This document shows, piece by piece, positions 9,776 through 25,160 of a stretch of 33,207 nucleotides of DNA. A program made the position numbers and the translations under genes. Position 1 is the stretch's first letter; each line of letters starts with the position of its first letter. Location: IMG/VR virus record IMGVR_UViG_3300028610_000993, positions 1-33,207 of that record. One strand, given 5' to 3'. The notes beneath the pieces were generated by a model, which worked only from the letters and a program-made list of their open reading frames with translations, had not been told where the DNA came from and did no database searches. This DNA comes from a virus.

Positions 9776-9804
9776 AGTATATCATAGATATACAACCGAA
9801 TCAA
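9776..9804 (-). promoter_or_regulatory. Family-A promoter with palindromic operator (9.78 kb)
   Basis: On the minus strand: TTGATT, 17-base spacer, TATACT. The spacer and -10 contain the perfect palindrome GTATATC-TAT-GATATAC (9777-9793). The core TATATCTATGATATA is also at 21864-21878 and, with one change, at 25134-25148. A TG one base before the -10 adds an extended -10. It drives the block that runs from the membrane protein towards the terminase genes, directly after a strong terminator. Confidence 0.82.
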
Positions 9805-9812
9805 TCTTAAAG

Positions 9813-9841
9813 AAAAAACTCCCCGATCACCGACCGGGGAG
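9813..9841 (-). terminator. Rho-independent terminator
   Basis: On the minus strand a CTCCCCG / CGGGGAG stem with a nine-base loop is followed directly by TTTTTTC. It ends the transcript coming from the 10-11 kb genes and the structured non-coding region, nine bases before the family-A promoter. Confidence 0.88.
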
Positions 9842-10044
9842 CTAACGGAGTATGAGGATTATATCCTCTACTAGAGGGAACCACCCCTCCCGAGAGATCG
9901 TATCAACTGGACGCGCATAATATTTTTGATCCTGTGATCTCAATCTCTCGGGAGAGCTCGAGCTCGGTTAAGTTTGGCTCGAGCATCCCGTAAAAGTAGT
10001 AGAGTGACTAAGCACTTTCAGTATATCAGGTTTGGGGAGCTCCG
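9842..10044 (-). ncRNA. Hairpin-dense non-coding region, possible attenuator RNA
   Basis: No gene is seen here. Inverted repeats stand in a row: GAGGAT/ATCCTC (9854-9859 / 9863-9868), CCTCTA/TAGAGG (9865-9870 / 9872-9877), TCCCGAGAGA/TCTCTCGGGA (9888-9897 / 9944-9953), GCTCGAG/CTCGAGC (9956-9962 / 9978-9984) and AGTG/CACT (10003-10016). The first two share bases and exclude each other. Read on the minus strand they precede a strong terminator. It could be an attenuator, a structured RNA or a DNA site; I recognise no known riboswitch or tRNA. Confidence 0.5.
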
Positions 10045-10302
10045 TCAATTTTTAGATAGAAATAATTTGAGTATATCATCCAGTTCAATAATTACATTTT
10101 CGTTAGCCGAGAGAATCCCATCTAAAAAAGCCCGAGAGTCCGCGTCCATTATCCCCCCCGTTTTTTCTTTGTTCTCTTTTTCTAGTTTCCTTTTTAGAGA
10201 TTCAATAGCGATTTTTATTTGTGCCAACCCTCTTAGATGCGCGCCAAATTCCACAAACTCATCGCCCGATTCGTTTTCAACTACTCTAATTTCTTCAGAC
10301 AT
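10045..10302 (-). CDS. Hypothetical helical protein, 85 aa
   Basis: Unrecognised. It is helical, with a charged coiled-coil-like middle (AIESLKRKLEKENKEK) and a hydrophobic C-terminal helix (VIIELDDILKLFL). AAGGAG lies eight bases before ATG. It is the last gene before the structured non-coding region and terminator. Confidence 0.65.
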   Translation of the reverse strand: MSEEIRVVENESGDEFVEFGAHLRGLAQIKIAIESLKRKLEKENKEKTGGIMDADSRAFLDGILSANENVIIELDDILKLFLSKN

Positions 10303-10681
10303 AATAAACTCTCCTTTTTTTCGCCGTCTCTTTTGCGGCTTCTAGTGTTTCAAAAATATTCCCTTTCATTACGATCATCGGGTGAATATGCGCGTTAGAT
10401 GCGGCGTTAACCCATTGTCGACCTGTCTGGATATCATATCCGTCAGTACAATCCGGCGCCCTACAAATCAGGGGTGACAACTTATCCTTAGTAAATCGCT
10501 TCTTATCGCCATCGTTCGGAAAGACCTCGACGACCCATTGTTTCGTGACCGGCAACTCGAAATCGTCCGGAGTCTTTAATATCTTGACTGTCAATATCCG
10601 ACCGATAGGTTTCGATTGCATTACTCGGCCGCCCTCTCTGAATTTTCGGGTTGTGATCTGGAGATAGTATTTTGGTTTCAT
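10295..10681 (-). CDS. Hypothetical protein, 128 aa
   Basis: Unrecognised. It is beta-rich (IGRILTVKILKTPDDFELP) with an unpaired CRAPDC pair and a helical end (TLEAAKETAKKRRVYYV). The start is the ATG overlapping the upstream stop (ATGA). An internal ATG at 10621 is less well placed. Confidence 0.6.
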   Translation of the reverse strand: MKPKYYLQITTRKFREGGRVMQSKPIGRILTVKILKTPDDFELPVTKQWVVEVFPNDGDKKRFTKDKLSPLICRAPDCTDGYDIQTGRQWVNAASNAHIHPMIVMKGNIFETLEAAKETAKKRRVYYV

Positions 10682-10872
10682 ACAACCAGCTCGACACAGC
10701 CCTCGATATTCTGAGGGCTGGTTGTTACGGTGTCAACCTCAACGGCTGGCTTCCCATAATGATGGCGCAGGCCGGATACAACTTTGAGTTTGCCGCCATC
10801 CTTGCGGGTTATCGTTGCGTTGCGTCCGATCCATCTAATTATTTTTACTTCGTGTCTTTGATATGTTAGCAT
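10678..10872 (-). CDS. Hypothetical protein after a family-B promoter, 64 aa
   Basis: Small beta-rich basic protein (HEVKIIRWIGRNATITRKDG) that could form an SH3-like or similar barrel. No family recognised. GGAG stands seven bases before ATG, and the gene lies directly downstream of the family-B promoter at 10.92 kb. It is coupled to the next gene by ATGA. Confidence 0.65.
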   Translation of the reverse strand: MLTYQRHEVKIIRWIGRNATITRKDGGKLKVVSGLRHHYGKPAVEVDTVTTSPQNIEGCVELVV

Positions 10873-10904
10873 TTTCTTACTCCGTTTGTTTTGATAGTTA
10901 CCTT

Positions 10905-10933
10905 ATTATAGACGATATATCGTATACCGTCAA
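10905..10933 (-). promoter_or_regulatory. Family-B promoter with palindromic operator (10.92 kb)
   Basis: On the minus strand: TTGACG, 17-base spacer, TATAAT. The spacer holds the perfect 12-base palindrome ACGATATATCGT (10912-10923), repeated identically at 13040-13051 and nearly so at 18495-18506. The -35 overlaps the stop codon of the membrane miniprotein at 10930-11055. Confidence 0.85.
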
Positions 10934-11055
10934 GGAACAAATACAGTATGCACCAAGACAAAACCGATCGCGGAGGCCATTATAAACCCCCATGCTACGA
11001 TAAACAAACCGATGAAAAAATAATGGACAAATGATCTTTGATCTTTAGTTGGCAT
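10930..11055 (-). CDS. Membrane miniprotein, 41 aa
   Basis: A short frame with an AAGGGG site five bases before ATG. After a charged start (MPTKDQRSFVHY) comes a single long hydrophobic stretch (FFIGLFIVAWGFIMASAIG) and a short tail, so a single-pass membrane protein. Function unknown. Its stop codon is part of the -35 box of the next promoter, and its start lies inside the end of the upstream gene. Confidence 0.6.
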   Translation of the reverse strand: MPTKDQRSFVHYFFIGLFIVAWGFIMASAIGFVLVHTVFVP

Positions 11056-11209
11056 TTTTACCCCTTCCGCCTTTATCGTAGCAAAACGGACAAACCATCT
11101 TGCCTTTTATCCTTATTTTCTTTGAGTAAACACGCCTGCAAAAACTACATTCTTTTCCATCCGGCGGGTCTGGCGGTCTTTGATTTGAGTATCTCCAAGA
11201 GTCCTTCAT
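11045..11209 (-). CDS. Small zinc-finger-like protein, 54 aa
   Basis: Two CxxC pairs (CSFCRR and CPFCYDK) with a basic 15-residue spacer indicate a zinc ribbon; the C-terminus is G/K/R-rich. AAGGA six bases before the ATG at 11209 and the ATGA overlap with the upstream gene favour this start over an ATG at 11266 that has no site. Possible nucleic acid binding; role unknown. Confidence 0.65.
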   Translation of the reverse strand: MKDSWRYSNQRPPDPPDGKECSFCRRVYSKKIRIKGKMVCPFCYDKGGRGKNAN

Positions 11210-11379
11210 GTCATATCCTTTCCGTTTGATCCTACAATCAAAACGATAAATATAAAAGCCAAGCATTTCGGGGCAACTGCGGTATGAGCTACAATCGCCG
11301 ACAAGGGAGTTTTGCCAATCGCGACTCCGCCATGGTTACAACCGTCACAACACCAGGAGAATTTAGGGAACTTTTCCAC
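11206..11379 (-). CDS. Small CCxxC membrane protein, GTG start, 57 aa
   Basis: Begins with GTG nine bases after GGAGG. The product has WCCDGC near residue 9, a middle polar part, and a hydrophobic helix CLAFIFIVLIVG near the end (about 39-50). Its TGA overlaps the ATG of the zinc-finger gene (ATGA). This coupling plus the good site supports a real gene. Function unknown. Confidence 0.5.
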   Translation of the reverse strand: MEKFPKFSWCCDGCNHGGVAIGKTPLSAIVAHTAVAPKCLAFIFIVLIVGSNGKDMT

Positions 11380-11791
11380 GGCCTACCGCCTCCGAGGTCA
11401 TTCGTTTAATATTTTCGACATGAGCTTTCATTCTGGAATGGTGTTGAGTCTCAAAGTATTTAGCCCAAAATTCTGTCCTATCTCTTTTAGAGAACTCCGG
11501 GGTGTCAAGGGCGCGAGTAAACGAAATTTTACGGCCACGTTCAGAATCATATTTTTGAGAATCCAATCTACAAAGATAAGCAAACCCCAATTTTATTACC
11601 GCGCCCCTGTAAATTTCACCCTTATCGTCCAAAGGGATTATCTCGCATACTGTACCACCAAAATATCCAGCGGTGCCGTTTTTTTCTGGACGTTTTTTTA
11701 ATTGCTCTGGGATTCGTTTGTCGGTACCTTTTGGATTGTAATGCTCAAAATCTACCGAATACAAGTTATCATCTATAATTAATTGAAACAT
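11363..11791 (-). CDS. Hypothetical protein, 142 aa
   Basis: Unrecognised but probably a known phage type. After a beta-rich start (FQLIIDDNLYSVDFEHYNP) there is a segment SERGRKISFTRAL and a C-terminal helical region rich in R/K/H. The GRKIxFTRAL segment recurs in phage proteins of unknown function that I have seen, but no function is claimed. GAGGAG lies eight bases upstream of ATG. Confidence 0.65.
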   Translation of the reverse strand: MFQLIIDDNLYSVDFEHYNPKGTDKRIPEQLKKRPEKNGTAGYFGGTVCEIIPLDDKGEIYRGAVIKLGFAYLCRLDSQKYDSERGRKISFTRALDTPEFSKRDRTEFWAKYFETQHHSRMKAHVENIKRMTSEAVGRGKVP

Positions 11792-11796
11792 TGTTT

Positions 11797-12687
11797 CTAC
11801 TCCTCGCCTACTTCATAGGCAATCAATTCCAACTCTTCTGAGATTTGTTTCTCTAGCTCTACCCGAGCGTCGTACAAATCCTCGTCTAAATGCTTTCTAA
11901 TATGTGTCTCTACCAGCGCAGCCAAGTAGGGAGGATCAATCGCGTCCAACTCCCAGGACGACTCGCCGTATTGAGATATATAGTCTTTCGCCCTTGAGTC
12001 GGTCACCTTGGCATAATTGGGCGGTGGCTTTAACTCCTCGATCTGCTCGAAGGTCAGCGCCAATCGATTGACTTCGCCGTCATTCAGGCCTCCAAGCAAA
12101 CGGATCCGGTCTCCGATATCTCTATCCATGTCTAACCCGCTTGGGTCGTGGTCTCCAAGATACAACATATAAACCCGTTGACCACCTTCGACATATGCCC
12201 TAATCTCACGAGCGATCTTGTATAGATGTGACTCCGACGAATACCCTTTCATTGCAGTAAATGGGACGTCAAGCTTTTCACAGACCGGACCAAGCACTCC
12301 GCTTAATGCGTCTTTTTCAACCATTACATATACTCGATTCTCTTGATCTTCCCACCGATCGAGCTTAAATATCTTTGACGCCATTGTGATGATATCCGAC
12401 GCTGAGTTAAAATGAGCGCTTCGATCTAATGACCGCCCACGGTCGACGATCATATCCCAATCGATGTAACCAGCGCGGCGACCCATCTTGACTATGTCGA
12501 CAATCTTTCGGTATTCATCTTTATTATTTGGGATTAGATTTCGAGCGACCATCTGATAATATAACTGCCTAACAGATAGATCATATCCTTGGTCTGCGTA
12601 CTCCTCAATTATATCGATCGCATGTCGTAGCTTTTGGATCCGCTCTTTCTTTTTTGGCTTCCAGTCTATGAATTTTCTTTTGGTCAT
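11797..12687 (-). CDS. TOPRIM-domain protein (Spo11/topoisomerase VI-A-like)
   Basis: The 296-aa protein has an N-terminal helical region with YDLSVRQLYYQMVARNLIPN (about 35-54) and a TOPRIM-like core: MVEKDALSG with the glutamate at 124, then LGDHDPSGLDMDRD with acidic residues at 179, 181 and 187. It ends with TDSRAKDYISQYGESSWELDAIDP. This pattern is a recurring phage family that resembles Spo11/topoisomerase VI A TOPRIM folds. A role in DNA strand manipulation or metal-dependent nucleic acid binding is inferred. GGAGGAGG is seven bases before ATG, and it overlaps the upstream zinc protein (ATGA). Confidence 0.78.
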   Translation of the reverse strand: MTKRKFIDWKPKKKERIQKLRHAIDIIEEYADQGYDLSVRQLYYQMVARNLIPNNKDEYRKIVDIVKMGRRAGYIDWDMIVDRGRSLDRSAHFNSASDIITMASKIFKLDRWEDQENRVYVMVEKDALSGVLGPVCEKLDVPFTAMKGYSSESHLYKIAREIRAYVEGGQRVYMLYLGDHDPSGLDMDRDIGDRIRLLGGLNDGEVNRLALTFEQIEELKPPPNYAKVTDSRAKDYISQYGESSWELDAIDPPYLAALVETHIRKHLDEDLYDARVELEKQISEELELIAYEVGEE

Positions 12688-12995
12688 TTAGTAACCTCCT
12701 CCAAAAAACCATCGTCTCCGAGTGTTTTCCATGGGGGTTTTATATCTTGCGGTAAATATCTATTCCCGAACATCCAAGCCCAAATCTCGCCCTCTGTGGT
12801 TTGTAATATTGATTCAAAAACTTTGCTATCAAGTCTTGAATCTTCCATAACTTTTTCGATAGGCGTTTGGTGATTTTTCAGTGACGAAAACGACTCCAGT
12901 CTTTCCCTAACCAGAGGAGCCAGACAAAAACGTCTATGTCTTTTTATACCCCTCTTGGTATATTCTCTTTTACAGGTTTTACAAATAACTTTCAT
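12684..12995 (-). CDS. Zinc-finger-like protein after a family-B promoter
   Basis: The 103-aa protein begins with CKTCKREYTKRGIKRHRRFC (residues 5-24), a C2HC-type finger with CxxC and HxxxC. The rest is acidic/helical with a W-rich segment (EIWAWMFGNRYLP). DNA or protein binding is likely, function unknown. The ATG at 12995 has GGAG seven bases upstream; an earlier frame start at 13025 is not supported. First gene of the family-B operon at 13.05 kb. Confidence 0.68.
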   Translation of the reverse strand: MKVICKTCKREYTKRGIKRHRRFCLAPLVRERLESFSSLKNHQTPIEKVMEDSRLDSKVFESILQTTEGEIWAWMFGNRYLPQDIKPPWKTLGDDGFLEEVTK

Positions 12996-13032
12996 TTTTC
13001 TACTCCGTTTGTTAGTTGATAACACTACCTAT

Positions 13033-13062
13033 ATTATATACGATATATCGTCTTTATGTCAA
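13033..13062 (-). promoter_or_regulatory. Family-B promoter with palindromic operator (13.05 kb)
   Basis: On the minus strand: TTGACA, 18-base spacer, TATAAT. The spacer has the perfect palindrome ACGATATATCGT (13040-13051), identical to the one at 10912. The -35 TTGACA overlaps the last codons of the upstream gene (Leu-Thr-stop). Confidence 0.87.
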
Positions 13063-13455
13063 GGCTTTTTTTCGCACATACCGCGCCCGTTCTCTCCCTC
13101 TCCTGGCGTTATCATTACAATCTTGGCTACAGTAAGCAACCGCGGGACTCGTCCTCTTGAACTCTGACCCACATAATTTGCAATTTCCCTTTTTGAATGT
13201 TTGGAGAAACTCTCCTTTTGTTTTGGCGCACACCTTACAAACCTTTGAGGCTGTCAGGAATTGGGTCGTGTATTTTAATTTCCCACAACCACCCCAGGCT
13301 AACGAACACATTTTACGCGCTCTCAATACTTGATCTCTTGTTCTTCCGCTTGGGTTAAATTGCAAGTTGGCTTTTTTGCAGCCAAGGACCTCGGCTTTTT
13401 TTATTACGGTCTTTGATGAACATTGCAGGGAATCCCAATCAAAGTTAAAAGACAT
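13054..13455 (-). CDS. Multi-cysteine zinc-binding protein, 133 aa
   Basis: At least ten cysteines: MCSLAWGGCGKL, KVCKVCAK, NCKLCGSEF and a final YCSQDC, which resembles the CxxCG...F...YCSxxC pattern of small zinc-finger domains. The C-terminus is basic (RRGRERARYVRKK). Nucleic acid binding is inferred. GAGGAG lies seven bases before the ATG at 13455, and the gene closely follows the methyltransferase. Confidence 0.68.
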   Translation of the reverse strand: MSFNFDWDSLQCSSKTVIKKAEVLGCKKANLQFNPSGRTRDQVLRARKMCSLAWGGCGKLKYTTQFLTASKVCKVCAKTKGEFLQTFKKGNCKLCGSEFKRTSPAVAYCSQDCNDNARRGRERARYVRKKALT

Positions 13456-13456
13456 T

Positions 13457-14824
13457 TTATTTCTCCTCAAATAAGTTTAGTTGTACCCCTTGCTTTTTCC
13501 AATATTCAAATCTTGCTTTTCCGATCTCGGCATATTCTGACTCTAATTCGATCCCTGCGATTTCTTCCCAGCCCGCACGCCAGCAACCAATCACTTCAGA
13601 AGCCACACCAGCGAAGGGAACAAAGATTCTGCGGGGGGCGTATTCTTTTGGCGGGAGGAGGAGAGTCGCAAGGTGTTCTATTAGGGCGATTGGTTTTAAA
13701 GTTGGATGCCCGCATCGTTCACCACCTAACCCCGCATTCCTTTCACTCACGCTAACCTTCGCCTGATAAACAAACGGATCAGCGTTTTCGATTGCCCAAT
13801 GGGATTGATGAAAGAATCTACTGGCACCACCGGAGTCGCCGTATTCTACGTTTGGCGTTCCAAATTCTCTACTGTCTGCCCCATATACGTTTCCCTGATG
13901 TCCTGCAGATGTAGCTTTTTTTACTGCACCTGTCCCGCTTGTCAAATGTCCCGATTGCCTATCCAACGCCAACACCGGACACCCATCAACGCATTCCCAT
14001 ATTGAGACACGCCCACCTTCCACTTCCTCAGATTCAAACTTTTCGCCAACAGCATCACCGAATGGTTTTGCTCCGTCTGTGAAACGGTTTATTTGATAGG
14101 AGTCCGATTCTCGATAGCCGATCATTTCGCATTGGGGGGAATGGGTATAGAGGGCGTTGGCGGGCCAGCGACCTTGTGGAAGGTTGGCGTTTTGCTTTCC
14201 ACCTTCCCATCCATCATCATTGATAGTGTGTTCGTGATGCCACCCCCCTGGCTGTTGGTTTATATCTCCCCCAATCCTCCCCCCGTCAATATTCAATGCC
14301 CCTGCCCCTGTTTCTGTGATGGAGTCTATCGGTCTACCTTCGTATGGCTTTTGGAATACTATGATAGGTTCTGATGCTGGCTTGAGGGCTTGGAGTCCGT
14401 AGCGGTGTCCTTCAAATATTTCGTTGTCTTTTATCCTGGTAGCTTTTGGGAATCCTGAACCAAAATTCCAGGACATTTGCGGGTGTATCCAAAATCCAGC
14501 GGACTCAATGGCTGTTGCCATCCTGTGCGCCGTTCTACTTCCCCCGAAAGCCATCCCGAATGCTCCCGGGTGTAGGATATTATAAAAGGCTTCCCAGGTT
14601 TCTTTTTGAAAGGCTATATCGCCCCCATCCCAGATCTTACCCATAAAACCAGTTGATAATCTTTTGAACGCCCCGTCTGTTCCTTCCTGTGCTGGGGCTG
14701 AGTCCTCTTTGCCAAATCGCTTTGTAATTGTGGTCAAATGGTATGGGGGGTCACAAATAATTGCATGATACAACTTTCCCTTGTATTCCTTCGCCCATTG
14801 GATAGCGTCAGCGTTAATTATCAT
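13457..14824 (-). CDS. DNA methyltransferase, DPPY type
   Basis: The 455-aa product has the catalytic motif CDPPYHL at 24-30 and the SAM-binding-like motif FAGVASEV near 404, followed by GCWRAGWEEIAGIELESEY, with HPTLKPIALIEHL between. Motif IV before motif I indicates the beta order of amino-methyltransferases, making N6-adenine or N4-cytosine. The middle region, with many G/N/D/H residues, is likely target recognition. A phage methyltransferase may protect DNA from host restriction; no restriction enzyme gene is next to it. The start overlaps the previous stop (ATGA). Confidence 0.88.
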   Translation of the reverse strand: MIINADAIQWAKEYKGKLYHAIICDPPYHLTTITKRFGKEDSAPAQEGTDGAFKRLSTGFMGKIWDGGDIAFQKETWEAFYNILHPGAFGMAFGGSRTAHRMATAIESAGFWIHPQMSWNFGSGFPKATRIKDNEIFEGHRYGLQALKPASEPIIVFQKPYEGRPIDSITETGAGALNIDGGRIGGDINQQPGGWHHEHTINDDGWEGGKQNANLPQGRWPANALYTHSPQCEMIGYRESDSYQINRFTDGAKPFGDAVGEKFESEEVEGGRVSIWECVDGCPVLALDRQSGHLTSGTGAVKKATSAGHQGNVYGADSREFGTPNVEYGDSGGASRFFHQSHWAIENADPFVYQAKVSVSERNAGLGGERCGHPTLKPIALIEHLATLLLPPKEYAPRRIFVPFAGVASEVIGCWRAGWEEIAGIELESEYAEIGKARFEYWKKQGVQLNLFEEK

Positions 14825-15438
14825 TCTTGATTCTTTTCTCCGTTGAGAAACTCCTCACCGTCGTATTGAGCCTCTACCGCATCGATAAAATCCATCACCA
14901 AGAACGCTATCCCCTGCGGTATCTCTTCTTTCCCCCGATTGAGATCAATCCTTTTCGCGTTCGCATACGCCCCTCTCATCCACTTGTACCAGACCGGCCG
15001 AGTATCCTCGTCCCGGTTATCTTCCGCGATCTGGGCGGCCAACTTACCGACCGGCATACGAATCCCGCCGTATAGATCAGCGCTCTCCTCTGCCTTTTGT
15101 AAATATTCGGTTGCTTTCTCCAAATCCCCCGCGGCCTTGGCGACAAAAAAATGTGAGTGGGTCAAAGACGGGTATTGTTCCCTGGTTTCTTTAGGATAAA
15201 AATTCGCCGTCGATCGGAGATCACCCACCCGGGCGCCGGACTTCCCGGACAATATCCCAACGTTTACCAAGATCGCCTCGGTTGACGCTTTGGGCGGTTT
15301 TTCTGCTACCGCCTCCTCCGCTAGATCACCAAGGACCCAAAGATTAGACGACAATGTTTCCCCGGCTTGGATGATCTTCTCTTGTAACGGATCGGCTATC
15401 GTTTCCCGTACTGTTACGGATAATTTATTCGAGTCCAC
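14821..15438 (-). CDS. Hypothetical protein, GTG start, 205 aa
   Basis: Unrecognised. It is mainly helical with LWVLGDLAEEAV near the N-terminus, a basic middle (SGARVGDLRSTANFYPKETRE) and LQKAEESADLYGG. The WxLGDL segment is like some phage DNA-binding or replication-associated proteins, but that is weak. The start is GTG at 15438 because AAGGAG lies seven bases before it; a TTG at 15471 is not supported. It lies in the replication block and is coupled to the methyltransferase. Confidence 0.7.
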   Translation of the reverse strand: MDSNKLSVTVRETIADPLQEKIIQAGETLSSNLWVLGDLAEEAVAEKPPKASTEAILVNVGILSGKSGARVGDLRSTANFYPKETREQYPSLTHSHFFVAKAAGDLEKATEYLQKAEESADLYGGIRMPVGKLAAQIAEDNRDEDTRPVWYKWMRGAYANAKRIDLNRGKEEIPQGIAFLVMDFIDAVEAQYDGEEFLNGEKNQE

Positions 15439-15808
15439 TGAGGAGCTCCTTTCGGACTTGGTCAGCGACAATTACCTCGGCCGCCTTTTCATTAAACCCT
15501 GTACTGTCCCCGAGAATCATATTGCCCGGAATAGTCGTCATTAAATTACTCGGTGTATACCTCGCCCCCTTCACCACGATCCAGCGCCGGTTGCCTTTCG
15601 GACCCTTGACAACTTCAATAAGTCCGGACTCCTCTAGGATATCCACTACTAGCCGGGCCTGTCTTTCGGTTTTGAGACCAAGGTGATCCGCGATCTCTTG
15701 ATTGGCAGGCGTGTTCCCGCCCCATTCGGATTTATATGCCTCGATAAAGATCAAGGCTTTGACGGCCCGATCGATCATTAGATCGGTGTGTGGTTTAGTT
15801 TTTGTCAT
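15425..15808 (-). CDS. Winged-helix DNA-binding protein, 127 aa
   Basis: The central part NQEIADHLGLKTERQARLVVDILEESGLIEVVKG contains a helix-turn-helix and a basic wing (GPKGNRRWIVV), as in LexA-like and other winged-helix regulators. No catalytic domain follows. It may be a transcription factor or an accessory to replication. AAGGAG is ten bases before ATG. It sits between the helicase loader and a hypothetical protein. Confidence 0.7.
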   Translation of the reverse strand: MTKTKPHTDLMIDRAVKALIFIEAYKSEWGGNTPANQEIADHLGLKTERQARLVVDILEESGLIEVVKGPKGNRRWIVVKGARYTPSNLMTTIPGNMILGDSTGFNEKAAEVIVADQVRKELLSGLE

Positions 15809-15826
15809 TTTCGTTTGACTCCTTTT

Positions 15827-16642
15827 CTATTTAGTTTGTCCAGCTACCGGCCGCACGCTCTTACCGGTTAGCTTTATAATTGTATTTTTGCCGAAACGAG
15901 AATCCCTTAATCGGTCTTGGATGTATGGCGCTAACGAATCCTCCGGAGCAAATTCACTTGTAAAGATAGTAATCCCGCGACCTTCCTCAGACGCGTTCCG
16001 GTATCTCTTTTGTAAGATCGTTTGGATCTTCTCCTCTGCCCATGGCGTCGAATACTGCGCCCCGAACTCATCCAGAACCAATAGGTCAAGGTCGATGATC
16101 TTATTTACCCGATCGGCGATTGGTGATTCGGCTGAGTATGCGTCCCTCAAATAATCTAACAGATCGGCGACCACCATGATCTCAGCGGACATCCCCTGTC
16201 GTAAAGCCTCGGCGACTGCGATAGATGCCGAAAAGGTTTTACCAAGTCCGTTGGCGCCGTGTAAGTAAAGCCAACCGTAACCGGTAGAGAGTAAGTCTTT
16301 TAGGATGTCTCTGGTTTGGTGTCCGTCGTTTATGGGGAGGATATCGCCCCAGCCCATATGTGTAAATTGTTCGGTTAGACCGAACAAGCTGTAGTTAATC
16401 GGGGAGGGGGGGAGGTTGGGGCAGTCGTGTAATTGTCCGAAGTTGGGATGACCTACTGGTACATCGTATCGAAGCAAGCCAAGACCTCCGCAAAATTCGC
16501 AACTCGGAATACATAAACCATGGTCTATCTTTAAGACTTCAGGCGGGGTTTTGCTTGAGTCAATAACGACTCGTCCCTTCCCTGGCTTTAGTGTGTGGGT
16601 GGTGGTTACGGTTACTTCGCTGATCGGTTTAGGTTTTGTCAT
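15827..16642 (-). CDS. DnaC-like helicase loader ATPase
   Basis: This AAA+ protein has Walker A GANGLGKT at 119-126 and Walker B DLLVLDEFG ending about 184, with a sensor-1-like IFTSEF and an arginine-rich DRLRDSR. A zinc-ribbon-like N-terminus is visible at C44, C48, C51 and C74. DnaC/IstB-type proteins load the replicative helicase at the origin. The gene follows the initiator after one intervening gene, as expected for a phage replication module. The host helicase is presumably recruited, because none is seen here. The ATG at 16642 has GAGGAGG nine bases upstream. Confidence 0.88.
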   Translation of the reverse strand: MTKPKPISEVTVTTTHTLKPGKGRVVIDSSKTPPEVLKIDHGLCIPSCEFCGGLGLLRYDVPVGHPNFGQLHDCPNLPPSPINYSLFGLTEQFTHMGWGDILPINDGHQTRDILKDLLSTGYGWLYLHGANGLGKTFSASIAVAEALRQGMSAEIMVVADLLDYLRDAYSAESPIADRVNKIIDLDLLVLDEFGAQYSTPWAEEKIQTILQKRYRNASEEGRGITIFTSEFAPEDSLAPYIQDRLRDSRFGKNTIIKLTGKSVRPVAGQTK

Positions 16643-18516: not shown

Positions 18517-18525
18517 CCAGAATCG

Positions 18526-18726: not shown

Positions 18727-18739
18727 TATTAATACTCTC

Positions 18740-19957
18740 CTAAAACGGTATCTCTTTTTGTCCGGCTTCTTGAGTCGCAACCGTCCAAACCATACGAGCC
18801 TCAGACGCGGCGATCTTGTCTATTTGCCAAGCATCACCGGAATCCTGCGAAGGCTTCAGCCACTCGTTCAACATCACCCACACCCACGGCGCGGGAATCT
18901 TCAACGTTGAATGTTCATCTGTCAAATACTTCGAGACATCTTTCCTCTTTTGCTCGACCGTCTTGGCGCCCTCCCCGATCCAGGCCAACTCCAGGGACAT
19001 TCTCAATAGTCCTCGCTGTTCTTTGCTAGATTGCTTCTTGACAGAATATTTATCCGATGCGACCTTGGCCTCTAGTCCCTTTTTCAATGTTTTGGGGTCG
19101 TAGGGTCTGACATGCGGGACGGGGGGAGTCGTTTCTTTTGCCGTCCCCTCAATAACCTCTCCGGTGATTTTATCCGCGGTAATTCCAGATCCGAGTTCTC
19201 CGGCGGTTTCAATAGGTTCTATTTCTGCTAGTTCCCTTTTCTCCGTTAGCTGTGCTTGGACCCATGATTTACTGGCCTTCAAAAATATAAGGCTTTTCTC
19301 GCGGCGGACTCTCTTGCCTCCCTCTCCTGGGGTCGAGATCATCTTGGGTTTTCGATGTAATAATATATCTATGTTCTGAAGTGATCCCCCGCCCATGTGA
19401 TACAACGCCGCCAAGTTCTCTGAGATTTGTCCTATATCGTACTGTGAACTCGTGTGTAATGTCAAAGACGCCAACTCACCCAAGATCGGAATTATTACCT
19501 CAAGCCGCCCAACGTGCTTTAAAAATACTGGCTGTTTTTTTCCCTTGGTGTCCTCGTAATGTGTAGCGGGTTCATCCGCGATATAAGGCCTCGGTGTGTC
19601 AGTTACAGCGTCGAGTCCATCTTTGATAATAACCCGTCCAGTATCCGGCTCCCTCAGATATAAATAAATCTCGCCGTCCGATCTCGCAACCATTGCCCCC
19701 GCGGTGTAGGCTTCGAGCCACGCGTCCCAACATTGCGAGATTTCTTTATACGGCAACCAGATCAATATCTCTTTTGGTTCGGGTCCGTAGTGGTTATTGA
19801 ATATCTCCGCGGCCTCAACCTCTAGCTCGTCAAACTCAACCCTGAAATAATCCAGGTCTTTCGGGAACTTGCTCTCCCCTTTTGGCTCTCCCTTGCGGAT
19901 GTTCCCTATCTTGGGGAAAGCCATGTTTCGATCTGTTAATCCTTTGATTGGTGACAT
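18740..19957 (-). CDS. Gp3-like recombination directionality factor homologue
   Basis: The 405-aa protein begins with FPKIGNIRKG...PKDLDYFRVEF..VEAAEIFNNHYGPEPKEI and continues with CWDAWLEAYTAGAMVARSDG. This order resembles the N-terminus of gp3-type recombination directionality factors of serine-integrase phages (phiC31 gp3) and the related widespread phage family. In phages without serine integrase the role is unknown. No integrase is seen in the window. The C-terminal half is helical and basic. AGGAG stands seven bases upstream of ATG. Confidence 0.65.
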   Translation of the reverse strand: MSPIKGLTDRNMAFPKIGNIRKGEPKGESKFPKDLDYFRVEFDELEVEAAEIFNNHYGPEPKEILIWLPYKEISQCWDAWLEAYTAGAMVARSDGEIYLYLREPDTGRVIIKDGLDAVTDTPRPYIADEPATHYEDTKGKKQPVFLKHVGRLEVIIPILGELASLTLHTSSQYDIGQISENLAALYHMGGGSLQNIDILLHRKPKMISTPGEGGKRVRREKSLIFLKASKSWVQAQLTEKRELAEIEPIETAGELGSGITADKITGEVIEGTAKETTPPVPHVRPYDPKTLKKGLEAKVASDKYSVKKQSSKEQRGLLRMSLELAWIGEGAKTVEQKRKDVSKYLTDEHSTLKIPAPWVWVMLNEWLKPSQDSGDAWQIDKIAASEARMVWTVATQEAGQKEIPF

Positions 19958-19967
19958 TTAAATTCTC

Positions 19968-20279
19968 CTATTTTATCTCAAGTTTGATTTCAGGCTTTCG
20001 GAATCTAAAACTAAACGGCCATACAATCTTTGGCTTGGCTTTGATGGTTTTTGAATCCCATAACAAGTCGAGGGTTTCTAAAATTTCTTCTTGATTGAGA
20101 TATATCTCGATCAAATCAGGGGCTTCGTTTTTGATTGCGTCCAATAGTGCCTCAATGTCTGTTACTCGTAACATCAATCCGTGTCCATCGGCTTCAGCTA
20201 CCATATCGAACGCCACGCGTTCACTGTCGTCGCTGGCGCCCCATAACCCTAGTACACTTTCAAACAAATTGCTCATCAT
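19968..20279 (-). CDS. Hypothetical acidic protein, 103 aa
   Basis: Unrecognised. The first two thirds are acidic and helical (DIEALLDAIKNEAPDLIEIYL, EILETLDLLWD), and the end is basic (FSFRFRKPEIKLEIK). AAAGGAG is seven bases before the ATG. Lies between the gp3-like and zinc-ribbon genes. Confidence 0.62.
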   Translation of the reverse strand: MMSNLFESVLGLWGASDDSERVAFDMVAEADGHGLMLRVTDIEALLDAIKNEAPDLIEIYLNQEEILETLDLLWDSKTIKAKPKIVWPFSFRFRKPEIKLEIK

Positions 20280-20291
20280 TTTGATTCTCCT

Positions 20292-20615
20292 TTAGAATCC
20301 TAAGTCGTTAATATTATCTTCAGCGCTTTTCTTTTCTCGTGGATTTGGATCCAGCGCCGGGTATGCTTTTTTTACTTCCTGTGAATTGAAATGATCCTCT
20401 GTCTTTTTTCTTTCAACTGTCGACTCATGCACAAACCCGCGGGTATCCTCGTCGCATGAAACACATAATACAAGATACTCGTCTCGATCCTCTTGTGCCC
20501 AGATCACTAGATTGCGCCAACAGCTTGAGCAAACAAAATCAAATGTTTTCCTCTGCGCTTGAGGGTAGGTGACGGGTCTGATATAGATAGAGGATTTATA
20601 AACGATGTTAGTCAC
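20292..20615 (-). CDS. Zinc-ribbon protein, GTG start, 107 aa
   Basis: Two knuckles, VCSSCWRNL and LCVSCDED, are separated by about 20 residues, a zinc ribbon; the C-terminal part is charged and disordered. The start is a GTG at 20615 that overlaps the DUF5131 stop as GTGA, with GAGAGG seven bases before it. An in-frame GTG at 20633 is possible but lies deeper in the upstream gene. Function unknown. Confidence 0.65.
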   Translation of the reverse strand: MTNIVYKSSIYIRPVTYPQAQRKTFDFVCSSCWRNLVIWAQEDRDEYLVLCVSCDEDTRGFVHESTVERKKTEDHFNSQEVKKAYPALDPNPREKKSAEDNINDLGF

Positions 20616-21445
20616 AACCTCACCTCTCCCCACTTGATCGGTGTTTGCTGGACTCGTATATCCTGCGGCCAGTGATTAAAATCGCCTCCTTTGGAATCGG
20701 TTACGTGTACTCTCCTAAACTTTGCCCAAGCTGATCCCATCTGTTTTACAAACACCGGGACATTTTGGGACTTACAATCGCCTACGACTCCCTGCATCCA
20801 CGCGGGGATACACATAGCGATATTCTTTGACCGGCCGGACTCACCCCCAACGACGACCCAATCGAACACACGGAACCCGCCAAACCCCAAAGCGTCTATT
20901 AGGACTGTGCCTTTTATATCTTTGACAAACGGCTCTAGCGATAACCACGTATTGATTGGTCTCGGAGTCAATTCCGCCGCGGCTTTTTCCAGCGTCTCAG
21001 TATCACAAGCCGAAACGCCGAACCAAATGTTATCGAATGAGGCGGCTTTACTGGCTACAAAGGAGGCCATCCGCCGCGGACGCTTTGTGAGGACTAAAAA
21101 GATCGCTTCAGGATTTGATGCACAGGTCATTAAGACTTCGTCAATCTGTTCATCGGTTATGAGCTCGTGGAAAAGGTCGGTCATATCACAAACGAATACA
21201 ACCTTTCCAGGTTTGACGGCCAACAACGACACGATCTCTTTTTTATTGATCCTAAACTCTATGGCTTTTTCGTTTAGCTTGGAGTAGGGGAGTCCGTTTC
21301 CGAGGCGGCGATTCATTGTCTCAGAATAACAATATTTACAACCCCGATTTACTTTTGTGCAAAACCAACCTTTCGCACGACCTTTGATAAATGGGCGGAT
21401 CGGGTTGCTTGAAAAATGGGCGTACTGTATTTTAGTTGCTTGCAT
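20612..21445 (-). CDS. Phage Gp37/Gp68 family protein (DUF5131)
   Basis: The 277-aa protein has WFCTKVNRGCKYCYSE with cysteines at 29, 36 and 39, a Cys cluster like the radical-SAM-type motif of DUF5131. It also has VFVCDMTDLFHE, IFLVLTKRPRRM, WFGVSACD, WLSLEPF and VVVGGESG. These are signatures of the Gp37/Gp68 family, common in phages, whose biochemical role is unsettled. A [4Fe-4S] cluster is inferred. GGAGG lies six bases before ATG. A 13-residue mini-ORF ends directly before its start. Confidence 0.87.
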   Translation of the reverse strand: MQATKIQYAHFSSNPIRPFIKGRAKGWFCTKVNRGCKYCYSETMNRRLGNGLPYSKLNEKAIEFRINKKEIVSLLAVKPGKVVFVCDMTDLFHELITDEQIDEVLMTCASNPEAIFLVLTKRPRRMASFVASKAASFDNIWFGVSACDTETLEKAAAELTPRPINTWLSLEPFVKDIKGTVLIDALGFGGFRVFDWVVVGGESGRSKNIAMCIPAWMQGVVGDCKSQNVPVFVKQMGSAWAKFRRVHVTDSKGGDFNHWPQDIRVQQTPIKWGEVRL

Positions 21446-21487
21446 TTAGCGCCTCCGTTTTTTTGTGGTATACTTTTTATGGTTCAT
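21446..21487 (-). CDS. Mini-ORF, 13 aa, strongly basic
   Basis: MNHKKYTTKKRRR, with AAGGA seven bases before ATG and TAA directly abutting the ATG of the DUF5131 gene, whose ribosome binding site lies in the mini-ORF codons. A leader peptide is possible. Confidence 0.35.
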   Translation of the reverse strand: MNHKKYTTKKRRR

Positions 21488-21502
21488 TTTATTTTCCTTG
21501 TT

Positions 21503-21536
21503 ACCGACCGTTGGGACCTCCTCCCCAGCGGTCGGT
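21503..21536 (-). terminator. Hairpin between RHH gene and DUF5131 gene
   Basis: ACCGACCG with TTGGG pairs with CCCAG and CGGTCGGT (13 pairs including a G-U) around an eight-base loop that reads GAGGAGGT in the minus-strand RNA, i.e. a Shine-Dalgarno-like loop. No U-run follows, so it may be a weak terminator, a processing site or a regulatory hairpin. Confidence 0.45.
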
Positions 21537-21540
21537 GATT

Positions 21541-21837
21541 TTAACCGGATAAGGTCCGGCCGCCTTCGTAGCGGTTGATGAGGCGGTTGTTGTCGTCGAG
21601 TAATGCCTCGCATTCTGCTTTGATAAAACCATAAACAGACATTCCGGAATAATCATCCATCATTAATTCGTTCCCAAAAAGATTATCGACAACCCGAATA
21701 GCCATCCTTACCGAATCTGATTGCGATTCAAGCCCGAACAATTCAACCTTGCTCTCCAATGCCTCGCGATCCACTTTCGCCAACCGGGTATTAAATATCT
21801 TTGTTTCCTTTTTTGTTACTGGTATTTGTTTTGCCAT
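21541..21837 (-). CDS. Ribbon-helix-helix repressor candidate (family A)
   Basis: The 98-aa protein has an N-terminal basic strand (ETKIFNTRLA), then helices DREALESKVELFGLE and SDSVRMAIRVVDNLF, the RHH pattern, and an additional C-terminal helix region. It lies directly after the family-A promoter at 21.87 kb, with GGAGG six bases before ATG. Autoregulation through the TATATCTATGATATA palindrome is a reasonable inference, by analogy with the family-B pair at 18.3-18.5 kb. Confidence 0.7.
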   Translation of the reverse strand: MAKQIPVTKKETKIFNTRLAKVDREALESKVELFGLESQSDSVRMAIRVVDNLFGNELMMDDYSGMSVYGFIKAECEALLDDNNRLINRYEGGRTLSG

Positions 21838-21861
21838 TTACTACCTCCGAAGTTTTAGTTA

Positions 21862-21889
21862 ATTATATCATAGATATACAAGTGGTTAA
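21862..21889 (-). promoter_or_regulatory. Family-A promoter with palindromic operator (21.87 kb)
   Basis: On the minus strand: TTAACC, 16-base spacer, TATAAT with extended -10 TG. The palindrome TATATC-TAT-GATATA is at 21864-21878. It drives the RHH protein gene directly downstream. Confidence 0.78.
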
Positions 21890-22074
21890 GGACTATCATC
21901 ATTTTCAAGGTCGACATTTTTTTCAATTTCGGATACTGTAAACGACGACGTAGTAATATCGAACCCAAAAAACAAAGCCATTGATCTACCAAGCATTTCC
22001 CAAAACGAGAACCAATCAACGCCGTCGCTATCATCAATTGTTAGCTCAAAATTAATTGTAAATGTTTTCTTCAT
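21886..22074 (-). CDS. Hypothetical acidic protein, 62 aa
   Basis: Small acidic protein with a beta-rich start (KKTFTINFELTIDDSDG) and an aromatic helix (WFSFWEMLGRSMALFFGF). Possibly peripheral to the membrane. The ATG at 22074 has AAGGAG six bases before it and overlaps the previous stop. The long in-frame extension upstream is a different frame of the gene at 22071-22247 and is rejected. Unknown function. Confidence 0.62.
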   Translation of the reverse strand: MKKTFTINFELTIDDSDGVDWFSFWEMLGRSMALFFGFDITTSSFTVSEIEKNVDLENDDSP

Positions 22075-22247
22075 TTCAATCTCCTTTGTCTCAAAATAAT
22101 ATCCTCTCCGTCGCTCTGTATTTTTGTCGTTTTCCATTTGAGCGGGGGATATCCTGGGGGCGGTTTGATAAACCCTCCCCATGCTTTCTTTTTTATCCGG
22201 ACTACTCGAGTGTACTTTCTCTCGATGTAAATGATTTGTTTGGTCAA
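22071..22247 (-). CDS. Small basic protein, TTG start, 58 aa
   Basis: The frame between two neighbours codes for a basic protein (IIYIERKYTRVVRIKKKAWG, then a proline-rich KPPPGYPPLKW). The TTG start overlaps the upstream stop (TTGA) and its TGA overlaps the next ATG (ATGA), which gives a chain of coupled genes. No strong ribosome binding site is seen, so translation would depend on coupling. Function unknown. Confidence 0.5.
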   Translation of the reverse strand: MTKQIIYIERKYTRVVRIKKKAWGGFIKPPPGYPPLKWKTTKIQSDGEDIILRQRRLK

Positions 22248-22501
22248 GTTGTTTCAGTCTCAACCTCGATAAATACATTCATTTCAACAGGCGGATTACT
22301 TCCAAGGAGAATGTGTTGTCCAAACATATCTATAAAGCCGTGCATTTGAAATTTTGTATATCCGTCTTTATCGGTATCATCTATCAGCTTCTTTTGTGCA
22401 AAATCACCGCCCCAATATTTCAAAAAGACAATCCTTCCGCTTTCTTTTAGCTTCACATACACATAATTATTGAGATTTGATTTTACTTTTTTGTGTGGCA
22501 T
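22244..22501 (-). CDS. Hypothetical protein, 85 aa
   Basis: Beta-rich protein with a basic start (HKKVKSNLNNYVYVKLKES) and GGDFAQKKL and FQMHGFIDMFG segments. No family recognised. AAAGGAG is six bases before ATG. In the accessory block. Confidence 0.62.
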   Translation of the reverse strand: MPHKKVKSNLNNYVYVKLKESGRIVFLKYWGGDFAQKKLIDDTDKDGYTKFQMHGFIDMFGQHILLGSNPPVEMNVFIEVETETT

Positions 22502-22502
22502 G

Positions 22503-23087
22503 TCACTCTCCTTTATTAAATATAATATTATGCGGTTTTTTCGGCATCACTGGAATCAATGATTCCCAACAACTATCCCAACTCGTAACAATACGAGCCG
22601 GTCGATTTCCTTGGCTCCACTCGACCTCACCAATGTCCCACAACTTCCGAGTCAATATCCCCGCCCAATCTTGCAACGGGGCGGAGGATGTATTTCGATA
22701 ATTGCGGATCGCTTTAAAATACTTGCCCTCGTGTTCTGCATGTGAGTCGGCGAAAAACTGACGGACGAACCAAGCCGGGACTCCTTCGATATCGAACAGC
22801 GCACCACCTGGGGCAGGGGTTACCTTTGCTGTTATCCGGATCTCTTTGAAAAACTCACGCTCGTCAATCGTCGATCCTCTTAGCTCTTGCAAAAACAATA
22901 GATCGCCGGTAATCGAAATTCTCTCCGCGGTCTCTGCCAAATGATTCCGCGCGTCTTTCCACAATAGATATATGCCCAAGACCAAAGAGGGGACCGCGAC
23001 CGACAACGCGTATATGTTTTTGTCCAAGACCCAATAGGCGGCTCCGAGGACTGATGCGATCAACAACACAAAGGCGTAAAAAGCCAT
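22503..23087 (-). CDS. Membrane-anchored hypothetical protein, 194 aa
   Basis: Two N-terminal hydrophobic segments (FYAFVLLIASVLGAAYWVL and YALSVAVPSLVLGIYLLW) anchor a cytoplasmic or external helical/beta part rich in W and charged residues. No known domain seen. GGAGGGG lies seven bases before ATG and the start overlaps the methyltransferase stop (TAATG). It may be a membrane accessory; role unknown. Confidence 0.65.
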   Translation of the reverse strand: MAFYAFVLLIASVLGAAYWVLDKNIYALSVAVPSLVLGIYLLWKDARNHLAETAERISITGDLLFLQELRGSTIDEREFFKEIRITAKVTPAPGGALFDIEGVPAWFVRQFFADSHAEHEGKYFKAIRNYRNTSSAPLQDWAGILTRKLWDIGEVEWSQGNRPARIVTSWDSCWESLIPVMPKKPHNIIFNKGE

Positions 23088-23773
23088 TAGTCAACCCCTC
23101 CCCCATCGAAGACGGGTGTCTCATTTTTAGGCTGTGGGTACGCAATTTGTGTTTTTATGTTAGATTCCGATTCGTTAAATCTCATTTCTTGCTGTGCGTG
23201 CATGGGCTTTCTCCACATGCTCAACAAACGAGTTCTGCGTTCGAATCCTGTGACAATGCCAATCAGCCCTTTTAATTCCCAATCCTTTCGTCTGAACGAT
23301 GGGTATTTTTCATCAAGCCACAGCAACCATCCACCCGGAACCAAAACCCTTTTTGATTCCGTCATTGTTTTTCTGGAGTTTATTAAACGTTTAACCTTGT
23401 ATCTGCTTGCATCCTCTTCTGAATAAGGGGGGTCTATCAATATGACATCAAATGAATTGTCAGAAAAAGGCAAATTTTCAACATCTGCGATTTGATCCAC
23501 TTCAGGTAAATTGTGAATATCTAAATTAATGGCTCCGTCAATACGGCACCGCCCACAACAAGAATGCAAAAACCTATTTTCTTTTGTTGGAAAGCCCGCC
23601 AGTATTCTTTTGACGAATGTGCTAGGAAATTGCCCATAGTATATTGCCTTTTGCCACGATGTGCCACAGTACCACGTACCATAAATCCATTTGTGTGAGT
23701 ATATCGTTGGTGGGTATTTTGGATATTTCTTATTGATTCTTTCAACTATTGATCGAGGTGAGTTATTTGTCAT
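23087..23773 (-). CDS. DNA adenine methyltransferase-like protein
   Basis: The 228-aa protein has a Rossmann-type methyltransferase core: a likely SAM-binding region around 70-87 (FLHSCCGRCRIDGAINLDI) and the catalytic motif IDPPYSEED, with DPPY at 114-117, followed by VLVPGGWLLWLDE. DPPY with FDVILI indicates an amino-methyltransferase acting on DNA. No separate target-recognition domain is visible, so it is a small, probably solitary enzyme. It is coupled to the upstream HTH protein (ATGA). Confidence 0.8.
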   Translation of the reverse strand: MTNNSPRSIVERINKKYPKYPPTIYSHKWIYGTWYCGTSWQKAIYYGQFPSTFVKRILAGFPTKENRFLHSCCGRCRIDGAINLDIHNLPEVDQIADVENLPFSDNSFDVILIDPPYSEEDASRYKVKRLINSRKTMTESKRVLVPGGWLLWLDEKYPSFRRKDWELKGLIGIVTGFERRTRLLSMWRKPMHAQQEMRFNESESNIKTQIAYPQPKNETPVFDGGGVD

Positions 23774-24204
23774 TGCGTCTTGATCCTCTTATAGTCTTTC
23801 GCCCGACATTTTTTGTCGTGGTACCGTTGGCGAGAATCGCGGGGTATAAAGTTTATCTTGCAAGGGGGATAAATACATTTTATCGACGCCCCCTTTATCA
23901 GTGTCCCCGGCCGAACATCACCCAGGACAAATACCTCAACCGCTCGCGCCTTGGCGATATCCGAATCCATTCCGTCTATCGCGGCGCCTAAAGATTGGAT
24001 CGCTCTTTTCATAATTTCAGAGGGGGCAGTCGACCCTTTCAAAACACCGTGTAAATATTCCGGAGACCAAGGTCTAGCGGGGGCGTTTACGCCTGCCATC
24101 TTCCACAACTGAAAAGCTAATTCTCGTTTACCGCTCCAACTGCCTATATCAATCTCTAGCTCCTCTGCGATCATTTGAATTGATTCTGTGACTGATTGAT
24201 CCAT
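23770..24204 (-). CDS. HTH plus zinc-finger protein, 144 aa
   Basis: The N-terminal part has WSPEYLHGVLKGSTAPSEIMKRAIQSLG, which looks like a lambda-repressor-type HTH, and the end has CIYPPCKINFIPRDSRQRYHDKKC, a CxxxxC...HxxxC zinc finger. A DNA-binding regulator is likely. AGAGGAG is seven bases before ATG. The start is preceded by the TCTTAGTAGTG tandem repeat. Confidence 0.62.
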   Translation of the reverse strand: MDQSVTESIQMIAEELEIDIGSWSGKRELAFQLWKMAGVNAPARPWSPEYLHGVLKGSTAPSEIMKRAIQSLGAAIDGMDSDIAKARAVEVFVLGDVRPGTLIKGASIKCIYPPCKINFIPRDSRQRYHDKKCRAKDYKRIKTQ

Positions 24205-24215
24205 TTACTCGCTCC

Positions 24216-24237
24216 TCTTAGTAGTGTCTTAGTAGTG
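24216..24237. repeat. Tandem 11-bp repeat in a leader
   Basis: Two copies of TCTTAGTAGTG (24216-24226, 24227-24237); on the minus strand they read ACTACTAAGA and lie just upstream of the ribosome binding site of the HTH/zinc gene. A third copy of the first ten bases is at 8067-8076, also before a ribosome binding site. The rest of 24205-24317 holds no gene and a weak CTAAT/ATTAG hairpin. Confidence 0.55.
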
Positions 24238-24317
24238 TTTTTTCGTTTTGGTCTGTGGGTGGGTCTCTTTATATGCCTAATTTGTAAAATCGATTAGAGG
24301 GGTGTTTTTTGGGGAAA

Positions 24318-25106
24318 TTAGATTATTGCCTCTTTTACTCCGAACTCGTAAACAAACACATAAGGGTTATAGTCCCAGGTGTAGCCGGATTTTTTGTTGA
24401 TGGAGTCCCAACCAAGAGAGAAAGCAATCTGTAAACAGTCTGGAACCAAAGCATTAGAAAGACTCCCGATATCGATCCCTAAAAACTTTGCACCAAACCC
24501 GCTTCTAATCGCCCCCTCAGCGATAATGTCGTTGTCTGTTATATCTTGCAACCTCTCAACCCTAACCGATTTGATCTCTAACCAGAAACGAGACATCCAC
24601 TTAAACATATGGATAGATGAACGCCAACGACCAAAATCTTTATGGGTTGAAAATGATCCGCCTTGTTTGTCTTGGTTGGGAAATAGAGAAGTATAAAAAG
24701 AGCCATCCTCTTTATCGTATTTAATTTCATATACTAACCCGTCCGCCCTAAACTGAATATGGTTTTCAGCATCCGAGGAAAAACCCTTGACCAAATTGTA
24801 GGCATATCTCCAACCCTCACGGACGTATAAAAGGTCTCCAGGGATTCCGAGGGGTGGGCCAACATATAAAATATCGTGTCCTCTTGAAAATGTCGCCCTG
24901 CTGTTATTGATCGATTCGTTTACGTTTACTATACAACCCCAACCGTCCGGATTTTTGTTGACCTCCTCCAACCCCCCTAGCCTCCGCGTGTGACTCTTGA
25001 ATGGCTTACCTGAGTCAATCGGCTCCGGCGGCCACACACCGACTGCCGTATTTTTGATCGCGTTCACCATTTCAGACTTGAATAATGTAGGTCTTGTTTT
25101 TGACAT
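24318..25106 (-). CDS. ASCH-domain-like phage protein, 262 aa
   Basis: The segment PTLFKSEMVNAIKN...HTRRL, then GDLLYVREGW, then HMFKWMSRFWLEIKSVRVERLQDITDNDIIAEG and a final W..NPYVFVYEF matches the recurring phage ASCH (PUA-related) family. The strings VRE-W and ERLQDI are characteristic. ASCH domains bind RNA or modified bases; function in this phage is not known. It follows the family-A promoter at 25.14 kb and an AACGGAGG site. Confidence 0.78.
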   Translation of the reverse strand: MSKTRPTLFKSEMVNAIKNTAVGVWPPEPIDSGKPFKSHTRRLGGLEEVNKNPDGWGCIVNVNESINNSRATFSRGHDILYVGPPLGIPGDLLYVREGWRYAYNLVKGFSSDAENHIQFRADGLVYEIKYDKEDGSFYTSLFPNQDKQGGSFSTHKDFGRWRSSIHMFKWMSRFWLEIKSVRVERLQDITDNDIIAEGAIRSGFGAKFLGIDIGSLSNALVPDCLQIAFSLGWDSINKKSGYTWDYNPYVFVYEFGVKEAII

Positions 25107-25131
25107 TTTCTACCTCCGTTTATTTTCCTAA

Positions 25132-25160
25132 ATTATAGCATAGATATACAAGGTTTGCAA
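25132..25160 (-). promoter_or_regulatory. Family-A promoter with palindromic operator (25.14 kb)
   Basis: On the minus strand: TTGCAA, 17-base spacer, TATAAT. The palindrome-like site TATATCTATGCTATA (25134-25148) differs from the other two family-A operators by one base (C for A). An extended -10 TG is present. Confidence 0.8.

Follow-up and report, generated by a model that had tools for sequence, protein, structure and literature searches.

Two palindrome families in the promoters of an uncultured phage and two candidate small repressors

Promoters, palindromes and genes at the locus

The 33,207-bp IMG/VR record IMGVR_UViG_3300028610_000993, which derives from an uncultured phage and is referred to at its full length as the window, holds six sigma70-type promoters on its minus strand, each of which carries one of two palindromes (families A and B) in a register that would let a bound protein block RNA polymerase. 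The family A sites are A1 at 9778-9792 and A2 at 21864-21878, both exact TATATCTATGATATA, and A3 at 25134-25148, which reads TATATCTATGCTATA; TTGTATATCTATGMTATAMT is common to them, and the right arm runs into the -10 hexamer (TATACT at A1, TATAAT at A2 and A3), overlapping its first four bases. The family B sites are B1 at 10912-10923 and B2 at 13040-13051, both exact ACGATATATCGT, and B3 at 18495-18506, which reads ACGATAAATCGT on the transcribed strand and has one change. These three are entirely in the spacer between the -35 hexamer (TTGACG at B1 and B3, TTGACA at B2) and a -10 hexamer TATAAT, ending one base before the latter. Dyad symmetry is exact in four of the six sites. An earlier note on this DNA had described six minus-strand promoters with palindromes in their spacers, which holds for the position of all six sites and for the spacer placement of family B, while the family A palindromes extend over the -10.

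The A promoters span 9776-9804 (A1, TTGATT-17-TATACT, 9/12 sigma70 matches), 21862-21889 (A2, TTAACC-16-TATAAT, 10/12) and 25132-25160 (A3, TTGCAA-17-TATAAT, 10/12), with 28, 24 and 25 nucleotides, respectively, from the -10 to the start codon. The B promoters span 10905-10933 (B1, TTGACG-17-TATAAT, 11/12), 13033-13062 (B2, TTGACA-18-TATAAT, 12/12) and 18488-18516 (B3, TTGACG-17-TATAAT, 11/12), with 32, 37 and 47 nucleotides to the start codon. On the transcribed strand they read TTGACG GTAT ACGATATATCGT C TATAAT (B1), TTGACA TAAAG ACGATATATCGT A TATAAT (B2) and TTGACG GTAA ACGATAAATCGT A TATAAT (B3), and they are the three best sigma70 matches in 6500-26400 (12, 11 and 11 of 12).

The gene content behind these promoters is split in the manner that the earlier note had supposed, with family B ahead of the replication genes and the genes at 10-13 kb, and family A ahead of the accessory block and the entry to the terminase block. 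Behind A3 are phrog_874, a methyltransferase and small genes; behind A2 are the gene for a 98-amino-acid (aa) protein, a DUF5131 gene and a Gp3-like (recombination directionality factor-like) gene. B3 is followed by an Arc-like gene, DnaD-like and DnaC-like replication genes and a DNA methyltransferase, B2 by a topoisomerase gene (phrog_6247), and B1 by small unknown genes and then a terminator-like hairpin, while A1 leads to small genes and the terminase genes. A terminator-like hairpin of 12 pairs at 9817-9843 (minus strand), the clearest of the region, is located just upstream of A1 and separates the blocks; the weaker sites say little, as the terminator scan gave 26 sites against 19.8 (standard deviation 4.6) in shuffles. 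Transcription from the upstream promoters would presumably read through to this terminator at 9843-9817.

Recurrence and placement of the palindromes

A second IMG/VR record, IMGVR_UViG_3300024265_000070 (49,976 bp), has been found to be the same virus as the window. Two overlapping stretches (20,294 and 20,888 bases), with all six candidate operators inside, show 0 mismatches between the assemblies, and the other shared parts that were compared show 14 mismatches over 6,360 bases and 0 over 6,847 bases. By reading, the end of the longer record repeats some of its opening bases and then diverges, and because of this terminal repeat the record is probably close to a whole genome.

Close copies of the palindromes are confined to the six sites: with 2 mismatches allowed for A and 1 for B, each assembly yields three sites per family and no further ones. 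A matrix scan of the 50-kb virus likewise leaves a gap in score between the A sites (at least 19.2) and the next site (13.7), and between the B sites (at least 17.6) and the next (12.3). When more mismatches are allowed, family A has 8 matches at up to 3 mismatches (shuffle mean 1.39, with 0/100 shuffles reaching 8), and family B has 4 at up to 2 (shuffle mean 1.28, with 5/100 shuffles reaching 4). Sets of three copies, each at most one mismatch from a perfect palindrome, arise in 1/300 shuffles for A and in 45/300 for B; by recurrence alone A is rare and B is not, and it is position that carries weight for both families. Of the 21 perfect palindromes of both shapes in the window, 3 fall between the -35 and -10 of 12 promoter-like sites, each with a ribosome site and an open reading frame (ORF) behind it, where 0.08 would be expected by length; the figure is indicative, since the list of 12 was drawn up after the operators were known, and the count leaves out A1, for which a different hexamer register was chosen. 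Among these 12 promoters, all five that score at least 10/12 carry an operator, and the seven that score 9 comprise one at A1 (in the other register) and six with neither family. Generic promoter-like strings in 6500-26400 are not enriched (45 against 38.5, standard deviation 7.0, in shuffles).

Alternatively, the repeats could stem from duplication of a promoter cassette and have been retained for promoter strength, without serving as operators. The B promoters do share sequence past the -10 and near the ribosome site as well, as such copies would; however, promoter strength does not need the dyad symmetry that is exact in four of the six sites and that, in family B, occupies an otherwise free spacer, and we regard this explanation as unlikely.

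Several other features of the virus were noted in these scans. At position 39665 of the 49,976-bp record, outside the window, a perfect-consensus promoter, TTGACA TTAT ACGACATTTCGA C TATAAT, carries a decayed B palindrome in the same register and is located ahead of a small cysteine-containing ORF, and near 43257 of that record an inverted repeat TTATATC-N10-GATATAA precedes a small ORF in the structural gene block. Within the window, 9815-10014 (minus strand) has no minus-strand ORF longer than 33 aa inside it and folds at -83.1 kcal/mol (z-score -5.66, 0/200 shuffles as good), with a promoter-like site (10048-10020), a terminator-like end and no Rfam match at gathering score; it is likely a structured noncoding RNA, judging from these sequence features. 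The window as a whole has no tRNA and no Rfam match at gathering score. The promoter-like site at 10048-10020, which precedes this putative RNA, and another at 7103-7076 (both minus strand), which precedes the terminase small subunit gene, both have CCCCAAACCTG directly or one base before the -10, and CCCAAACCTG is found at only those two promoter-like sites in the 50 kb scanned, which makes a further promoter class possible. The product of 18740-19957 has a Gp3-like recombination directionality factor domain (PF18897, expect value (E) 7.5e-21). With an E limit of 1, the 50-kb record has no match to Phage_integrase, Resolvase or HTH_3, other helix-turn-helix (HTH) families not having been searched genome-wide.

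Candidate repressors and rival binders

The earlier note had placed a small ribbon-helix-helix (RHH) gene directly behind one promoter of each family, and for family B this is borne out. The first gene behind B3 (18270-18440, minus strand, starting 47 nucleotides past the -10) encodes a 56-aa protein that is an Arc-like RHH protein in several profile tests. Together with an upstream extension (18270-18473) it matches phrog_876 (E 6.5e-5), phrog_3431 (E 2.2e-4) and also phrog_582, all three of which are repressor families, and its trimmed 48-aa core matches more weakly (0.049 for phrog_876, 0.004 for phrog_3431). On a profile built from the Arc-like proteins of phage phiC2 with Mnt and Arc, it ranks first of 64 selected window ORFs, with 0/1000 shuffles as good, and with NikR added to that profile 5/1000 shuffles are as good. 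The Pfam family RHH_5 gives it 13.7-14.9 bits at a cut-off of 26, and it aligns with an annotated phiC2 Arc-like repressor at 34% over residues 1-46, with an E of only 8 in that search. It is fairly probable that the Arc-like protein binds the B palindromes, and this half of the reading is better supported than the A half. A hairpin with arms GGGGTAG and CTACCCC is located at 18463-18484 (minus strand), near the expected mRNA start of this gene.

For family A, it is the gene position that stands, as the gene at 21541-21837 (minus strand) is the first behind A2 and starts 24 nucleotides past the -10; the RHH identity of its 98-aa product is weak and comes from a single source, its similarity to the 56-aa protein. 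In that alignment 14/43 residues are identical with one gap, in strand-helix-helix register (E 0.007 as a single comparison), 4 and 11 of 3000 shuffles are as good, and, seen from the 56-aa protein, the 98-aa protein ranks best of 63 other ORFs. This in-register similarity suggests that the two may be distant relatives, and the 98-aa protein is kept as the candidate A repressor, at chances of even or a shade above.

The palindrome ahead of each of these genes is also that of two other promoters, B3 being shared with B1 and B2, and A2 with A1 and A3, as far as can be seen in the DNA itself. Which protein would bind which palindrome is assigned from gene position alone. That the two palindromes are the operators of two small phage-encoded repressors is, taken as a whole, only slightly favoured.

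A number of observations weigh against this reading. The 98-aa protein has no Pfam match (in trimmed forms, at E up to 10), no NCBIfam match, no RHH protein in a PDB search and no match to a transcription-regulator PHROG, and it scores poorly on three RHH profiles, with 66, 482 and 241 of 1000 shuffles as good. In the converse comparison, the 98-aa protein aligns a little better with the product of 17004-17783 (45) than with the Arc-like protein (42), which comes second. The single-sequence fold model of the 98-aa protein is poor (predicted local distance difference test (pLDDT) 51.1) and shows no RHH fold. An ungapped alignment of the 98-aa protein with NikR, which looks good by eye, was rejected, as 416/5000 shuffles are as good and it ranks fourth of 64 ORFs. 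The 56-aa protein has 659/1000 shuffles as good on a NikR-only profile, the RHH_1 profile, searched against the 50-kb record with an E limit of 10, has no match, and a single-sequence AlphaFold2 monomer of the protein is one long helix with no RHH fold (pLDDT 91.9, predicted template modelling score 0.49), which is weak evidence without an alignment. As the longer assembly is identical across the operator region, it gives no independent evidence of conservation. Other DNA-binding candidates are also encoded in the window: the weakly Arc-like 65-aa product of 792-989, which has 4, 73 and 122 of 1000 shuffles as good on the three profiles and is second on the Arc/Mnt profile, and winged-helix-like proteins at 25703-25945 (with weak matches) and 15425-15808.

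One or both palindromes might thus be bound by another phage protein (792-989, 25703-25945, 15425-15808 or the 144-aa product of 23770-24204), with the small first genes serving other roles. The rank of the 792-989 product on the Arc/Mnt profile (4/1000 shuffles), the weak winged-helix matches of 25703-25945 and the lack of a family match for the A2 product speak for this. No A or B promoter, however, has any of the four as its first gene, the 23770-24204 protein has no Pfam match, and the signal of 792-989 fades on the other profiles, its product being similar to neither the 56-aa nor the 98-aa protein. Such a binder is conceivable, at roughly a one-in-five level of belief.

Independent relatives were sought in phage, plasmid, IMG/VR and GTDB data, and none was found. 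Megablast of 9000-26000 against 50,697 phage records gave no match, and neither did tblastn against the same records with 18740-19954 at an E limit of 1e-5, with the 56-aa protein at 0.1 or with the 98-aa protein at 1 and then 10, nor a search of 72,556 plasmid records with the 98-aa protein (limit 10). At E up to 10 the 56-aa protein has 4 weak matches in the phage records (E 4 to 8), three of them in Clostridioides phages, where one is annotated as an Arc-like repressor, one is unannotated and one is hypothetical. Scans of IMG/VR with both small proteins and 18740-19957 returned the same virus only, and scans of GTDB genomes with both small proteins returned none; an exact 8-residue word was needed in these scans, which distant relatives can escape. 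Two contigs matched by the topoisomerase query (50% and 45% identity) were dropped as comparators, having little else in common with the window: in the parts compared, one of them shares a single further gene (27% identity) and a stretch of 25 residues, and the other nothing. The two promoter-like sites listed in them are neither A- nor B-like.

The palindrome shapes themselves do occur in other viruses. The A-type pattern TTGTATATC-N3-GATATA is present in at least 119 stretches in IMG/VR, and of 79 matches examined, 27 continue into a -10-like hexamer; in the A-type loci searched, the best tblastn match of the 98-aa protein has an E of 2.3. The string ACGATATATCGT-N-TATAAT is also found in one unrelated contig. 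A generalised B architecture, ACGA-N4-TCGT before a -10, was found in 12 stretches on 11 contigs, and two of the stretches are this virus, leaving 10 other contigs. Seven of these 10 have a small HTH-like protein downstream and/or a CI-like divergent protein, with a second ACGA-N4-TCGT nearby, and this too counts against the assignment of the B sites to an RHH protein; in the remaining 3, neither an HTH-like downstream gene nor a CI-like divergent gene was seen. The seven include two contigs with the same downstream protein, probably near duplicates, and the HTH matches of the four distinct downstream proteins are below Pfam cut-offs, the divergent proteins having been judged by eye. As the B shape is used by HTH switches elsewhere, the palindrome alone cannot identify an RHH protein.

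These contigs raise the possibility that the B palindromes serve as operators for a CI/Cro-type HTH repressor made elsewhere, for example by a resident prophage or the host, so that the B promoters would report an occupied cell; the HTH_3 search of the 50-kb record fits with this, and with the two-repressor reading, since by that test such a repressor is not encoded by the phage. The half-sites are alike and lie in the same place between the -35 and -10, but in the seven contigs the sites are paired between divergent genes, whereas here all six operator promoters have single sites, dispersed and pointing in one direction. The Arc-like gene is directly behind B3, and a 12-bp AT-rich palindrome can arise independently. 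We consider a CI/Cro-type repressor about as improbable as the promoter cassette described above.

Proposed mechanism, related systems and significance

The most likely interpretation of the locus would be the shut-off of early promoters by two small autoregulated phage repressors. On entry, the host RNA polymerase would fire the strong promoters, and the Arc-like protein made from B3 would accumulate and bind the B palindromes as dimers, as RHH proteins bind as dimers. It would thereby shut off its own operon, with the replication genes, along with the operons of B2 and B1. In the same way, the 98-aa protein made from A2 would shut off A3, A2 and A1, with A1 restarting transcription behind the terminator and leading into the terminase block. 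Negative feedback would then act as two separate timers on the genes of one strand.

The two regulons could in addition be linked. A weak B-like sequence, ACGATAATTCGC, at 25161-25172 (minus strand) abuts the -35 of promoter A3, through which the B repressor would act on the head of the A block in an ordered relay; a bolder form of the same idea has family B share a code with prophage CI/Cro operators, so that the phage would sense an occupied host. ACGATAATTCGC scores 10.5 on the matrix, where the three B sites reach 17.6-19.4 and the best of the remaining sites 12.3, and its place beside A3 may be chance. Such a link seems to us improbable.

The earlier note had called the two-repressor logic new, and this was too strong, since P22 and phiC2 precede it. 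In P22, two repressors, Mnt and Arc, have been described in one region, where they control an antirepressor gene (PMC2629481, in the portion available), and Mnt and Arc have been named as RHH relatives of AmrZ (PMC3325190, in part). Like P22, the phage described here would have two RHH-type repressors, and the B3 product aligns with a profile that contains Arc and Mnt. However, the P22 pair lies in one small region, immunity I, as far as the available portion of the source goes, whereas here there are two sets of three dispersed promoters, and the RHH identity of the second protein is weak. Another example is the Clostridioides phage phiC2, in which p60 and p61, both annotated as Arc-like genes, diverge on either side of TGACGTCA copies (1358-1492 of the stretch examined), and exact TGACGTCAA is at only two places in the genome, both between p60 and p61. 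From this arrangement, TGACGTCA is perhaps the operator of the phiC2 Arc-like genes. While phiC2 also combines a repeated palindrome with two small genes annotated as Arc-like repressors, its genes are neighbouring and divergent, and TGACGTCAA, as an exact match, is confined between them.

Repressors that act on several viral promoters are also known outside this arrangement. The archaeal virus RHH repressors SvtR (SIRV1) and F55 (SSV1) bind their own promoter and several other viral promoters (PMC5569661, in part); they differ from the present case in their archaeal hosts and promoters and in their operator sequences, and the portion of that source consulted does not present them as two operator sets in one virus. 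In SPbeta, a short repeat in many promoters, SPBRE, is the site of one repressor, MrpR (PMC10516654, in part). MrpR has a tyrosine-recombinase fold and keeps lysogeny; the present phage instead has two repeats and small proteins, and neither an integrase nor a resolvase was matched. Among the open-licence papers listed, judged by title and abstract opening, no report was found of two dispersed operator families and two RHH genes in one phage, and two dispersed operator sets of three in one phage may be unusual.

At the level of sequence the finding is real; the B half is a good hypothesis and the A half a candidate, and the whole is a modest addition to known repressor logic. If true, it would provide two compact sets of a phage repressor and its operators, every close site being known in what is probably a near-complete genome. 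These could be used as separate control parts and would map which of the unknown genes are under shared control. In archaeal viruses, shared regulatory sequences around strong promoters have been used to find anti-defence genes (PMC11065993, in the part available), and by that reasoning the small unknown genes that follow the A and B promoters would be anti-defence candidates.

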